NCBI GenBank assembly: GCA_003193925.1
Contig: PSPG01000008.1
Location: forward strand, 1 to 64,000
Source of the DNA: Candidatus Thalassarchaeum betae
GTDB taxonomy: Archaea > Thermoplasmatota > Poseidoniia > Poseidoniales > Thalassarchaeaceae
Length of the DNA: 64,000 bases
Direction of reading: 5' to 3'
Part shown: positions 17,658 to 22,911 of the stretch, piece after piece
Layout of the letters: the number at the start of each line of letters is the position of its first letter
Numbering within the stretch: position 1 is the stretch's first letter
The notes under the pieces: model-generated
The model's input: only the letters and a program-made list of their open reading frames with translations
The model's database searches: none
Told to the model about the DNA's origin: nothing
Translations under genes and position numbers: made by a program

Positions 17658-18620
17658 TCAATGCTGACTCGTCTTCTCGTCCCCAGCGGGCACCATGAAC
17701 ACCAGTGCGACGCCCGAGCCCACGATCAGCAGGCCGCCTATCCAGTCGGCGGTGCTCAGCGTCTCGCCGAACACAGTGAACCCGTAGAACGTCGCCACGA
17801 TGACGGTGAGGTACGAGAACGCGCTGACCCATGCGGCGTTGGCCTTCTGGTAGGCCATGGTGATTCCGACCTGCCCGCCTCCGGCTCCGATTCCGATGCC
17901 GACCAGGGCGGCCAGGGTCTGCCTGTCCACGGAGAGTAGGTCGGGGGCGGCCTGCACCACGCTGGCTGCGACTGAAGCCGCGGCGAACCAGAACACCACC
18001 GAGGTGGGAGAGTCGGTGGTGCGCAGCTCGCGCACGTAAATGTAAGCGAACGCCGCGAAGAATCCCGAGCCCAGAGCCAGCAGCGCGTCGGGCTCGACCT
18101 TGCCCAGCTCGGGCGAGACGATTAGGACGATTCCTGCGAAGGCGGTGATGACGAGGAGGGCTACGCCTGCTGAGACCCTCTCTGCCAGCATCTTGCCCGA
18201 GAGCAGGGCGACGAACAGGGGGGCGGTGTACTGCAGGGTGACCGCCTGGCCTATCGGGATCCTGCCGAGGGCGGTGAAGTAGAGGATCATCGCTGTCAGG
18301 CCCACAGCGCAGCGCAGGAACATCGTCTTGCGGTTGTTCACCCTCAGGCTGATGCCGCGGCTGGCTGCGAAGGCGGCTACTGCGAAGGCTATCACCGCCG
18401 AGCGCACCATGATGATCATCCAGACGTCAGCGTGCACGGTCGTCCACTTCACCAGGGCGTTCATCGAGCCGAAGCAGAGGCTGCCGAAGATCATCCACAG
18501 GACCGCTGCTCGAGCGGAGTCCGACGTGTTCTCCTGGCTCACGAACGACGACAGGTCGGGGCCGTCTGAGGCTGACGAGGCGATTTCCCCCAGGCCTCGG
18601 CCGAGTCCGCGCTTCGGCAT
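17658..18620 (-). CDS. EamA/DMT-family permease with ParB-type N-terminal peptide
   Basis: Ten hydrophobic helices in two EamA repeats (about residues 40-310) mark a drug/metabolite transporter family permease; the substrate is unknown. The ATG at 18620, one base after the parA stop, gives an N-terminus MPKRGLGRGLGEIASSA. This is the KRGLGRGL peptide that begins bacterial ParB/Spo0J proteins and stimulates the ATPase of ParA. About 30 polar residues link it to the first helix, leaving it free in the cytoplasm. No ParB DNA-binding domain is present. Gene order SAP protein, ParA, permease suggests the peptide acts on the neighbouring ParA. Confidence 0.85.
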   Translation of the reverse strand: MPKRGLGRGLGEIASSASDGPDLSSFVSQENTSDSARAAVLWMIFGSLCFGSMNALVKWTTVHADVWMIIMVRSAVIAFAVAAFAASRGISLRVNNRKTMFLRCAVGLTAMILYFTALGRIPIGQAVTLQYTAPLFVALLSGKMLAERVSAGVALLVITAFAGIVLIVSPELGKVEPDALLALGSGFFAAFAYIYVRELRTTDSPTSVVFWFAAASVAASVVQAAPDLLSVDRQTLAALVGIGIGAGGGQVGITMAYQKANAAWVSAFSYLTVIVATFYGFTVFGETLSTADWIGGLLIVGSGVALVFMVPAGDEKTSQH

Positions 18621-18621
18621 C

Positions 18622-19611
18622 CTACGCAAGACCCCAGCGACGCTCTAGAACCGTTGCCATCGCCTGGTAGTCCTGACCGCCCGCGCTAGTCGGGTCGTGC
18701 AGGTGTATCGGGATACCGTGGCTGGGTGCCTCTGCGAGCCGGATGTTCCTGCGGATGGCCGGCTCCACAATGAGATCTGGGAAGGTCTCCCTGACCTCTC
18801 CGGCGACCTGCTGGTTGAGCAGGGTGGGGGCGTGCATCGTCAGCAGCACCCCGTCGACCCCGAGCCGTGGGTTGAGCAGTCCCCTGACCTCCCTGATGGT
18901 GCCTGCCAGCAGGGCCAGGCCCTCGAGCGCGAAGTACTCGGTCTGGACTGGAATCAGGATGCCGTCGCTGGCGACCAGTGCGTTGATCGAGACCAAGCCC
19001 AGCGAGGGCGGGGTGTCGATGATGACAACGTCATAATGCGGCAGCAGCGGCTCCAGCGCCTCGGCGAGGCGGCGCTCCCGGCCCAACTGCCTGAGCATTT
19101 CCTGCTCGAGCCCGACGAGGCTCCTGTCGCCGACGATCATGTGGAGCCCCTCGACGGCAGTCGCGTGCCTCGCGCTGACCGCGCTCTCCGGATTGAGGAT
19201 GAGGTCGCGCGTGGTCGCGCTGACCTTGCTCTTGTCGACGCCGAGCCCGGTCGCGCAGTTGCCCTGGGAGTCAGCGTCGACGACCAGGACGCTGTGGCCG
19301 CGCAGCGCCAACTGGGCTGCGATGTTGATGACGGTGGTCGTCTTGCCGACGCCGCCCTTCTGATTGATGACGGTGACAACGCGCGCCCTGCCCTCGGGCG
19401 TCGGCTGGGCCCGCGGCAGGTCGAGCGGGCGGCGTGCCCGCGCTGTGCTGATCTCCTCGACGGCATCCAGCGACGGGGCCGTCGACTCCTCCTCGACCTC
19501 GGTGAACTCGACGTCGATAACAAGCGGTGCGCTCTCCACCTCCGGCAGCGTGCTGCCTTCTTCGTCGCTGGGCATACGAGCGCCTGCGGCGCTCGGAGTG
19601 CTGTTGAACAT
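18622..19611 (-). CDS. parA: ParA/Soj-family ATPase
   Basis: This deviant Walker ATPase dimerises on ATP and binds DNA non-specifically to position cargo. Residues 80-92 read TVINQKGGVGKTT (deviant Walker A with signature Lys), VLVVDADSQGN follows (A' motif), and DVVIIDTPPSLG is Walker B. Basic residues near the C-terminus (EPAIRRNIRLAEAPSHG) match the Soj DNA-binding surface. An acidic 75-residue N-terminal extension is unusual. The start is ATG 19611 or 19575. It follows the SAP-domain gene by 36 bp and abuts the permease gene. No separate ParB with a DNA-binding domain is seen in the window. Confidence 0.92.
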   Translation of the reverse strand: MFNSTPSAAGARMPSDEEGSTLPEVESAPLVIDVEFTEVEEESTAPSLDAVEEISTARARRPLDLPRAQPTPEGRARVVTVINQKGGVGKTTTVINIAAQLALRGHSVLVVDADSQGNCATGLGVDKSKVSATTRDLILNPESAVSARHATAVEGLHMIVGDRSLVGLEQEMLRQLGRERRLAEALEPLLPHYDVVIIDTPPSLGLVSINALVASDGILIPVQTEYFALEGLALLAGTIREVRGLLNPRLGVDGVLLTMHAPTLLNQQVAGEVRETFPDLIVEPAIRRNIRLAEAPSHGIPIHLHDPTSAGGQDYQAMATVLERRWGLA

Positions 19612-19647: not shown

Positions 19648-21822
19648 CTAGTCCGCGGGTAGCGAGGTGTGGTACCAGGCGACCATCCGGCTGGTCTCGG
19701 CGTTCATCACGAAGCTCAGCGCGTTGTCCCTGCCCGAATCCTCCCACGTGCGGCTCCCCGCTATGGTGACCTGCCCCTCTCCCAAACCCCCCGGGAGCAT
19801 ACCGAGCAGCTCGCTCTCCTCGGAAACCGACAGGCGGTAGGCGTAGGTGACGTCGACGTCCCAGTTGTCGCCGCTGTCGATGAACGGGTTCAGCTCTGGG
19901 TACCTGGTCTCAGACAGGATCCGGGTCTCGAGCAGCTCCAGCGTGAGGGTCTCCGGGACCGCTCCGCGGTTCCACTTGAACTCGCCATCTTCGAAATCGC
20001 CCTCAGCTATCAGCGAGCAAGAGGAGCCCTGCGAGCGCAGGATGATCCAGCCCGAGCTGTCGTCGTCGCTGACCCACGACATGTTCCACTCCGGCGAGCG
20101 GGTGGGCTGCGACCAGGCCGCCTGCCAGATGTAGCCGCCCGAGTCGAGAGCGAGCGCTGCGTCCCTCGTCGAGTGGTTCGCCATCAGGCACTGCACCGCC
20201 TCCTCCAAATCGAACATCCTGAGTTCCGACTCGTCCGGCATGGCCAGTCCCCACTGGCGCTTGTCGGTGGGTACGTCCTCGCCCACACCGGGGCTGCCTG
20301 CGTAAGCAGTGCCCCAGTGCACCGGGGTAGAGCCAGCGTTGCTGGAGGTCTCTGTCATTTCCATGATCACCCTCAGGCTTCCCTCGGGGAGAGCGGCTTG
20401 CGTGCCGGCGCTCACGAAGAAGTTGCAGTCGCTCGTCTGCTCGTCCTTGTCGATGAGGATGTCGACCTCCTGCTTGACCGGCCAGGGATTACCCCGCTTG
20501 ACCTGGATGTCGATGACGGCGTGGCCGAGGCAGCGACCGATCTCGAAGTGGAAAATCGTGATCGGGTAGACCAGCCCGTGTGCTGCGGTGTTGATCTCCC
20601 CACCGACCTGCCATCTCCAGTCGGACTGCCAGTTGATGTCGTCGTTCGACTTGTCGCCCTCCTCGAGGCTCTCGTCGCCGAAGAAGTCGTGCAGCTCGAT
20701 CGGCGTCAGGGGGAAGGTCAGAATCGGCGCCAAGTCGCCTAGGACGCCGAAGTCCTCGGTGCCGTAGATCACCGCCCTGACATCACTGAGCTGGCCATCG
20801 GAGTCGGTGAAGCTGACCTGCGAATCGGTGCGGATGGTCGTCTTGCCGGTGATCTCCCTCCAGCTCTTGGAAGTCGAGGTCAGGCCGTTGTCCTCCCTTA
20901 TCCAGCCGGTGTTCGAGCAGACTCCGTCGTTCCGGACCTTGCCCTCGAGGTCGATCGACAGGTCATGAGTGAGTATCTGCTCAGCGGTCAGGTGCTCGCG
21001 GCCGTAGGCGTCGCGGGCGCTGACCGCTCCCTCCAAGTCGGAGTCCAAGCCGTGGGTGATGTCGCCTGGCCCGCCCTTGCGGATGGAGATAGAGCCCGTG
21101 CCCGTCACGCCCGCGTGCAATTCGCCGCATACCTCGTCTAGGGTCGGCGAGACCGCGTCGCGGAGGTAGCCGATCATCTCGTCACCGGTGATGGAGACCG
21201 TCGTCTTGGTGATGGTGAAGTCCATGTGGTCGCCGTAGCGCAGCGGTCGCGCCGTGAACGAATGGTCCTGCTGGACGAAGTAGAATGCGATGGCCCCTAC
21301 CAAGAGGATCACCACCGCGACAGTCGAGATGGGCTTCCAGTTGGCCTTGAGACCCGAGAACGAAGGCACCGTGATCACCAGCGACGGCTCCTCGGCGTCT
21401 TCATCGTCGAGGAACATCTGCGGCGGCTCCTCGCTGGGAATCACTCCCGAGAACCACGGGTCCTCTTCCTCGGGCTCTAGCACGACGGTCTCAGGGATTT
21501 CCGGCTCGGGCTCCTCCTCGACGACTATCTCGGCCTCGAGGACCTCCTCCTCCGCCTCTTCTTCCTCGGGCTCCTCCTCGGCCGGGGCCTCGCTGCTGAC
21601 TCGGGCGATCAGCCGGTCGATCGCATCGTCGATGTCCTCGGGGCCGCGGGAGGTGCTGGCTGCAGGTGCGCTCTCAGGAGCGTCAGGGGAGCCCAGCAGT
21701 CTGCTGATCAACTCGTCCTTCTTACCAGATACCAGAAGGCTGCGCTCGCTGCACATCTGGCGCAGCTCGCTGACCTTCATCGAAGACAGGGTGTCTCGGT
21801 CAGGTGTCTCGTCTGAGGCCAT
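19648..21822 (-). CDS. Membrane-anchored SAP-domain protein
   Basis: The 724-residue product has a SAP domain at residues 15-44 (MKVSELRQMCSERSLLVSG followed by KKDELISRLLG), a helix-extended loop-helix motif that usually binds DNA. A Glu/Pro-rich acidic linker spans about 60-150. One transmembrane helix lies at about 164-183, and an external domain of about 540 residues is rich in beta strands and Asp. The basic side next to the helix suggests that the SAP end is cytoplasmic. The start at 21822 removes an artefactual upstream extension. It heads the operon with ParA and the ParB-tailed permease, so tethering DNA to the membrane is a natural inference. Confidence 0.8.
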   Translation of the reverse strand: MASDETPDRDTLSSMKVSELRQMCSERSLLVSGKKDELISRLLGSPDAPESAPAASTSRGPEDIDDAIDRLIARVSSEAPAEEEPEEEEAEEEVLEAEIVVEEEPEPEIPETVVLEPEEEDPWFSGVIPSEEPPQMFLDDEDAEEPSLVITVPSFSGLKANWKPISTVAVVILLVGAIAFYFVQQDHSFTARPLRYGDHMDFTITKTTVSITGDEMIGYLRDAVSPTLDEVCGELHAGVTGTGSISIRKGGPGDITHGLDSDLEGAVSARDAYGREHLTAEQILTHDLSIDLEGKVRNDGVCSNTGWIREDNGLTSTSKSWREITGKTTIRTDSQVSFTDSDGQLSDVRAVIYGTEDFGVLGDLAPILTFPLTPIELHDFFGDESLEEGDKSNDDINWQSDWRWQVGGEINTAAHGLVYPITIFHFEIGRCLGHAVIDIQVKRGNPWPVKQEVDILIDKDEQTSDCNFFVSAGTQAALPEGSLRVIMEMTETSSNAGSTPVHWGTAYAGSPGVGEDVPTDKRQWGLAMPDESELRMFDLEEAVQCLMANHSTRDAALALDSGGYIWQAAWSQPTRSPEWNMSWVSDDDSSGWIILRSQGSSCSLIAEGDFEDGEFKWNRGAVPETLTLELLETRILSETRYPELNPFIDSGDNWDVDVTYAYRLSVSEESELLGMLPGGLGEGQVTIAGSRTWEDSGRDNALSFVMNAETSRMVAWYHTSLPAD

Positions 21823-21954: not shown

Positions 21955-22911
21955 ATGGACCCGCGCTTGATCATACTGTCCCGAGGTCCCGAGTTGTACA
22001 GCACCAAGCGCCTCGCTGAGGAGGCTGAGGCGGCCGGTTGGGCGGTCCGAATAATCGACCCGCTCTCCTTGACCATCGTCGTCGATGACACCGGCGGTCG
22101 GATCTTCAGCAGGGGCTGGCCGGTGGAGTGTGAGGCTGTCATCCCGAGGATCGGCTACTCGATCACTCACAGAGGCGTCATCGTCCTGCGTCAGTTCGAG
22201 AGCATGGGAGTCATCGTGATCAACCGGAGCGACGGCATCGAGCGCAGCCGTGACAAGATGATGGCCTGCCAGATGATGTCCAATGCCGGAGTCCCTGTGC
22301 CCATCACCGCACACGTAGGGGCCTGGGAGGACACCATCCGCGCCGTCAGCCGCGTAGGCGGCCCTCCGTGCGTGGTGAAGTCCAACGAAGGGACTCACGG
22401 CTCCGGCGTCTTCCTCGCTCACTCGGACCAGCAGGCGCGTCAGTTGGTCTACCAGATGCTGGAGCGCGACATGCGACCTCTCGTCCAAGAGTACATCCAG
22501 GAGTCCCACGGCCAGGACATCCGCGCCCTCGTCGTGGATGGTGAAGTCGTGGCAGCCATGCGCCGCAAGGCGCACGGCTCCGAATTCCGCTCCAACTTCC
22601 ACCTCGGCGGCAGCGTGGAGTCAGTCGAAATCTCACAGAGGCAGTCCGAGATCGCCTGTCTGGCGGCAAAGACCCTTGGCCTCGACTTCGCTGGAGTCGA
22701 TATGCTGGAGTCACGCAGCGGACCACTGGTCCTCGAGGTCAACTCGAGCCCTGGACTCGAAGGCATCGAGTCAGCCTGCGGCAAGATAGTCGCCGGCAAG
22801 GTGGCTGAGCTTCTGGACAGGAGGCTGCGCGAAGCGCAGTCGGTAGACGAGCCACCCCGCGCTATCGAAGACAGCACCGAAAGCGGCGAACACTCGCCGG
22901 CCTACGACTGA
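21955..22911 (+). CDS. rimK: RimK-family ATP-grasp ligase
   Basis: This ATP-grasp enzyme would ligate an amino acid (often glutamate) to a carboxylate acceptor. Features are the RimK N-terminal fold (LIILSRGPELYSTKRL), NRSDGIERSRDKMMACQMM, the ATP-binding GTHGSGVFL loop, VQEYIQESHGQDIRALVV, and the metal ligands DMLES and LEVNSSPGLEG. Relatives modify ribosomal protein S6, coenzyme F420 or tetrahydromethanopterin, or the LysW carrier; the acceptor cannot be told here. A CTCAAGAA box about 24 nt upstream suggests a leaderless mRNA. It is divergent from the SAP-ParA operon. Confidence 0.88.
   Translation: MDPRLIILSRGPELYSTKRLAEEAEAAGWAVRIIDPLSLTIVVDDTGGRIFSRGWPVECEAVIPRIGYSITHRGVIVLRQFESMGVIVINRSDGIERSRDKMMACQMMSNAGVPVPITAHVGAWEDTIRAVSRVGGPPCVVKSNEGTHGSGVFLAHSDQQARQLVYQMLERDMRPLVQEYIQESHGQDIRALVVDGEVVAAMRRKAHGSEFRSNFHLGGSVESVEISQRQSEIACLAAKTLGLDFAGVDMLESRSGPLVLEVNSSPGLEGIESACGKIVAGKVAELLDRRLREAQSVDEPPRAIEDSTESGEHSPAYD

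Follow-up and report, generated by a model that had tools for sequence, protein, structure and literature searches.

Organization of the parA1 locus

The window, i.e., the whole stretch of 64,000 nucleotides of Candidatus Thalassarchaeum betae DNA analyzed here, carries on its minus strand (17658..18620) an ORF encoding a permease of 320 amino acids with an N-terminus of the ParA-binding type. The protein belongs to the EamA/DMT transporter family, as two of its stretches match the EamA domain (Pfam PF00892, E=1e-23) with 84 bits compared to a curated cut-off of 28. Its membrane-embedded transporter body comprises residues 39-312 (17685..18506, minus strand). The upstream gene parA1 (18622..19611, minus strand; exact start uncertain) encodes a Soj/ParA-type ATPase (Pfam AAA_31, E=1e-51). 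On this strand, the parA1 stop codon TAG (18624-18622) and the permease ATG (18620-18618) are separated by the single base G at position 18621, and the one-base spacing reported in the preliminary description was thus confirmed by the ORF coordinates.

Upstream of parA1, a SAP-domain protein with one transmembrane helix and a large outside domain is encoded (19648..21822, minus strand). The order SAP-domain membrane protein, parA1 and partner gene was strictly maintained in all lineages compared. Synteny of the SAP gene, whose product is putatively DNA-binding, extends to both families of the order and includes loci from which parA1 is missing. With its large domain presumably located externally, the SAP-domain protein represents a candidate tether between nucleoid and membrane.

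A ParB-like peptide at the N-terminus of the permease

The N-terminus of the permease reads MPKRGLGRGLGEIASSASDGPDLSSFV (residues 1-27; 18540..18620, minus strand), of which the range 18582-18620 encodes MPKRGLGRGLGEI. Based on its homology to approximately the first 35 residues of a soluble protein encoded downstream of parA1 in related genomes, this block appears to be grafted onto the transporter. It contains the GLGRGL core (permease residues 5-10; 18591..18608, minus strand), which was aligned with the spacing described for Myxococcus xanthus ParB (PMC12462528), and a second conserved element, PDLSSFV (18540..18560, minus strand), corresponding to DLPFLxAYG in the soluble protein. A variable linker (18507..18539, minus strand) connects the block to the first membrane helix.

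The residues through which the M. xanthus ParB peptide binds to ParA are L11, R13, L15, L18 and I19 (PMC12462528). Permease residues L6, R8, L10 and I13 reproduce the spacing of L11-R13-L15-L18, and among the 46 permeases carrying the block these positions are kept in 46/46, 44/46, 46/46 and 45/46 (hydrophobic) cases, respectively; the fifth position, I19, is not kept. Accordingly, the permease features the N-terminal ParA-binding motif of a ParABS partner in four of its five contact positions.

A degenerate DNA pattern for KRGLGRGL matched the 1.48-Mb assembly exactly once, namely at the permease start, and the reversed control yielded 0 matches. Given the composition of the ParA and permease proteins, the probability of GLGRGL occurring by chance at a given place is approximately 5e-7. 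The ParB-like N-terminal peptide on the permease is hence confirmed as real and not a product of chance.

A soluble protein as the older partner of parA1

Related genomes of the Ca. Poseidoniales, mostly Thalassarchaeaceae and Poseidoniaceae of Marine Group II, which are very abundant ocean archaea, were compared, including 148 family genomes from eleven genera (g1 to g11). Most of the 148 genomes harbor a parA1 ortholog; those in which the sole ParA match had an E-value of approximately 1e-38 or weaker were regarded as possessing the ParA2 paralogue alone. In g2, g4, g9 and g10, the slot following parA1 is occupied by a soluble protein of approximately 137-161 amino acids with the N-terminus KKGLGRGLGDLLAQHDTDLPFL, beginning ...KKGLGRGLGDLLAQHDTDLPFLGAYG. 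Its first 30-35 residues, approximately, align with the N-terminal block of the permease, and both proteins are mutually exclusive among the 148 family genomes. With its order-wide occurrence and its presence in nearly all members of the sister family, the soluble partner represents the older state.

The preliminary description had considered that a parB gene was deleted down to its first codons and fused to a permease. The fusion itself is supported by the homologous N-terminus of the soluble slot protein; the assumed parB donor was not recovered, as this protein features neither ParB_N nor an HTH domain, and sequence searches of Pfam, NCBIfam and the PDB gave no match to it. Moreover, no ParB gene linked to parA1 was found; a canonical ParB was not found elsewhere in the window's genome, and ParB_N exceeded the cut-off in only 5 of 60 relatives' genomes and was not linked. 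An AlphaFold2 model of the soluble partner predicted a disordered N-terminus, in which the motif forms a short helix, followed by a confident alpha/beta domain. The best PDB structure matches were weak (E 0.005 and up) and comprised the T4 MotA C-terminal domain and type III secretion chaperones; the fold likeness to these proteins may serve as a mere lead.

Most soluble partners encoded beside parA1 keep all five contact positions, with a hydrophobic residue at position L11 in 28 of 31 cases. Among those lacking parA1 at the locus, L11 is hydrophobic (counting Ile and Met) in 15 of 46, and R13, L15, L18 and hydrophobic 19 are retained. The correlation of L11 with parA1 is suggestive but not significant, since only four changes occurred on the tree. 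Those parA1-lacking genomes of the soluble-partner kind that were searched harbor ParA2 only or no ParA match. Persistence of the RGLxxLM core in soluble partners without parA1 indicates another use of this core, possibly with ParA2.

In many Poseidoniaceae (loci L163-L165 and L176-L215), the soluble partner directly follows the SAP gene, parA1 is missing and RGLDHLMEQN-FLSAYG is kept. The ParA2 paralogue is approximately 40-46% identical to ParA1 and widespread in the order, also in genomes without parA1 (e.g., G148:C1:1980132-1980932).

Distribution and repeated loss of the N-terminal block

The permease was found in 86 genomes representing 7 of the 11 genera and is nearly always encoded immediately 3' of parA1. 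The block, following the pattern [KR]xGLGRGLxx[IVM]…GPDLSSFV, is present in 46 of the 86 parA1-linked permeases and entirely missing in the other 40, so that its state is all-or-none across the 86 junctions. It is carried by all analyzed members of g6 (10/10), g7 (8/8) and g11 (23/23), by 4 of 15 members of g5 and, in g1, by the window genome (1/8). The remaining members of g1 (7/8) and g5 as well as g3 and g8 are block-free, and parA1 stays conserved at the 40 loci without the block. Free variation between closely related genomes, named beforehand as refuting the proposal, is apparent only in part, insofar as seven of the eight loci in the window's genus are motif-less; what occurred there is a clean loss of the whole block without drift.

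Motif-less permeases begin shortly before the DSPRxAVLWM stretch, as do the nearest archaeal permeases not associated with parA. The latter are 43-51% identical and lack the block (MGEEIKDSPQLAISWML and similar), and the proposed comparison with permeases encoded away from parA therefore agreed with a parA-associated motif. The looser GLGRGL pattern elsewhere in the family genomes occurred at roughly the frequency of the reversed control; as this also applied to motif-less genomes, relocation of the motif to another gene is considered unlikely there at the level of pattern counts.

The ParA tree features one change from the soluble to the permease partner and 3-4 motif changes among permeases. 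Five motif changes were deduced from the permease tree, in which the motif occurs on both sides of the deepest split (54-56% identity). Together, the single partner change in the ParA tree, the homologous N-termini, the mutual exclusivity and the older soluble state indicate that the permease inherited the ParA-contact-type peptide of the earlier partner. The simplest history comprises one graft of the peptide onto a permease followed by repeated loss, with 3-5 separate and clean losses of the block. Alternatively, an intermediate holding both genes may have existed, with a different loss in g3.

Three genomes (L104, L105 and L120) combine a g11-type parA1 with a much more divergent permease that is 54-56% identical to that of the window, branches at the deepest split and has kept the motif; this looks like a replacement of the permease body. 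The parA1-linked permeases of L018 (G029), L116 (G127) and L115 (G005) are broken by frameshifts or N runs, representing either assembly errors or early decay. Plasmid-borne DMT homologues nearest to the permease are only approximately 32% identical and uninformative regarding its origin.

Purifying selection on the peptide

Alignment of the 46 motif-bearing permeases revealed a nearly invariant GLGRGL core and a variable linker, as had been anticipated for a selected peptide. Both Leu residues and the middle Gly are present in 46/46 sequences, the first Gly and the Arg in 44/46 and the last Gly in 40/46. PDLSSF is nearly as conserved, and the residues ahead of the motif as well as the linker behind the block vary. 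The Arg was replaced by Met in G135, whose parA1 forms a long branch in the ParA tree, and by Ile in G144. At the motif positions, six codons are used for Leu and four for Gly, i.e., synonymous sites are saturated.

Since the amino acids are near-invariant over saturated synonymous codons and the linker varies freely, selection is deduced to act on the peptide and not on the DNA; an element acting at the DNA level, for example a signal for translation start or coupling, was rejected owing to the same synonymous saturation. As judged from these alignments, purifying selection acts on the block wherever it has been retained. Regarding the suggestion that the peptide was kept under selection as a ParA contact, both its near-invariance and its homology to the N-terminus of the soluble slot protein speak in favor.

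ParA1 and its predicted peptide cleft

The closest solved homologues of ParA1 are M. xanthus ParA (8RAY, E=4e-59) and, subsequently, Thermus thermophilus Soj; matches to MinD were far weaker, and ParA1 is accordingly not placed among the MinD proteins. Every Walker-motif and active-site residue examined is intact, and Arg/Lys is conserved at position 238 of the M. xanthus numbering, which is a DNA-binding position. ParA1 thus represents the Walker-type ATPase that characterizes ParABS, its active site and its DNA-binding surface both being intact.

The peptide-binding pocket of M. xanthus ParA is formed by V116, L150, L152, L155, L187 and L192 together with Y81, E82, D110 and E117 (PMC12462528). 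ParA1 residues 204-209 (L204, L206, I209; 18985..19002, minus strand) correspond to the L150/L152/L155 portion of this cleft. In M. xanthus numbering, ParA1 retains L150, L152, I155, L192, D82 and E117 and differs at Y81 (R), D110 (S/T/N), V116 (Q) and L187 (E), leaving the Arg pocket half conserved. As the pocket is partly kept, the mode in which ParA1 would bind the peptide is probably similar, though not identical, to that of M. xanthus. The Arg of the motif had been described as stimulating the ParA ATPase; the picture of an arginine finger is dated, as the M. xanthus residue binds a surface pocket (PMC12462528), which is partly kept in ParA1.

Among 251 ParA columns, column 152 separated best, and column 155 third best, between motif-bearing rows, in which they are invariant, and motif-less rows. 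Both columns show 0 changes in motif-bearing rows and four to five changes each in motif-less rows, whereas total ParA changes are higher in motif-bearing rows (498 vs. 354). Column permutation yielded p = 0.001-0.003 when all ten published pocket positions were considered and p = 0.0003 when only the six hydrophobic ones were; this also held for a tree built with the pocket columns masked. The cleft changes in motif-less rows are conservative (L/I, I/V), and column 152 also varies (L/I/V/Q) among ParAs beside a soluble partner with an intact motif. Judging from these substitution patterns, the ParA cleft residues are relaxed in the lineages that lost the block.

Proposed function of the peptide and alternative explanations

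Based on these sequence comparisons, permease residues 1-27, approximately, are proposed to represent a ParA-binding and probably ParA-activating peptide derived from the soluble partner, making the permease a membrane-fixed partner of ParA1; a probability of about 0.62 is assigned to this interpretation. The body of the soluble partner was exchanged once for an EamA permease, and the ParA-contact-type peptide was kept. In the most likely mechanism, the N-terminus of the permease would contact ParA1 and stimulate hydrolysis from the membrane, thereby coupling ParA1 to it. The permease may represent a cargo positioned by ParA1, an anchor coupling nucleoid-bound ParA1 to the membrane or a regulated transporter.

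A true graft might also serve the permease itself or a protein other than ParA1, for example in membrane insertion, regulation or interaction with ParA2. Persistence of the RGLxxLM core in the soluble partners of ParA2-only genomes, conservation of PDLSSFV/DLPFLxAYG outside the known ParB motifs and the half-conserved Arg pocket would fit such a role, which is nevertheless considered unlikely given the strict adjacency of the block to parA1, the exact ParA-contact spacing of its conserved positions and the relaxation of the ParA1 cleft columns upon its loss. Clean loss of the block on 3-5 occasions, with parA1 and the permease retained, would also be expected if it were a passenger relic of the fusion, functionless as a protein and kept for a parA-coupled translation start. 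This explanation is improbable, since the block's amino acids are near-invariant over saturated synonymous codons and the neighboring linker varies freely.

Derivation from a former canonical ParABS operon by deletion of parB down to its first codons would account for the ParB-type motif and for a parA-partner gene order as in parAB. It is regarded as very improbable: the ancestral slot holds the family of approximately 150 amino acids devoid of ParB_N/HTH, ParB_N is scarce among the 60 relatives' genomes, and according to a survey (PMC12704722), archaea are generally devoid of chromosomal parAB. Chance or convergent likeness to ParB, for which the shortness of the motif could be put forward, was rejected considering the sole genome match, the low per-site probability and the homology of the block between two protein families encoded at one locus, and it is refuted by conservation across genera.

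If the permease is indeed a membrane-fixed ParA1 partner, ParA1 would act against the cell membrane instead of with a DNA-binding ParB, as the data suggest. A more far-reaching and tentative idea, considered possible but doubtful, is that Thalassarchaeaceae ParA1 participates in a nucleoid-membrane linking system in which a membrane-fixed activator drives chromosome positioning without ParB. Such a system would consist of an operon-like unit of the SAP membrane protein, the nucleoid-binding ParA and the peptide-bearing permease replacing the soluble partner.

Comparison with known systems

The locus resembles bacterial chromosomal ParABS as known from M. xanthus (PMC12462528) in its Soj-type ParA, the partner gene directly after parA, the N-terminal L-x-R-x-L-x-x-[LI] peptide and the kept cleft residues L150, L152, L/I155, L192 and E117. 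It differs in that a permease integral to the membrane or, in the ancestral state, a soluble protein other than ParB serves as the partner, in each case without ParB_N/CTPase and HTH, in Tyr81 being replaced by Arg along with other pocket differences, and in its location on an archaeal chromosome. Since the defining ParB is absent, membership in canonical ParABS is not claimed. The McdAB, PpfA-TlpT and PomXYZ systems (overview in PMC10241942) likewise combine a cargo-dependent partner body with a charged, disordered N-terminus contacting the ATPase; compared to these, one lineage here exchanged the partner body and kept the peptide. No polytopic transporter partner of ParA/MinD cargo-positioning systems was found in the literature surveyed. 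In SegAB/SegC of the Sulfolobales, an archaeal ATPase of the ParA family is likewise accompanied by an adjacent partner, but SegA-type ParAs deviate around helices H4/H6/H7 and in the peptide (PMC12462528), and SegB is a DNA-binding protein and not a permease. The transporter body is that of EamA/DMT permeases (YddG and relatives; PF00892), whereas the N-terminal block is missing from ordinary members of the family, among them the nearest archaeal relatives encoded apart from parA. The literature search yielded no description of a transporter bearing such a ParA-binding-type peptide.

Little is known of the roles that ParA/MinD ATPases play in archaea (PMC10241942). At the present locus, a chromosomally encoded archaeal ParA has had two partners in succession, whose sole shared part is the ParA-contact peptide. 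This natural domain-swap experiment suggests that the peptide and not the partner body is the conserved unit. Furthermore, it provides a candidate partner for an ‘orphan’ ParA and a new uncharacterized partner family in marine archaea, and a membrane-fixed ParA partner becomes directly testable with a short peptide.

Genes for a tyrosine recombinase (PF00589; 23059-24195, plus strand) and a RimK-like ATP-grasp protein (21955-22911, plus strand) adjoin the locus. The proximity of the Xer-like recombinase to parA may have a bearing on chromosome segregation.
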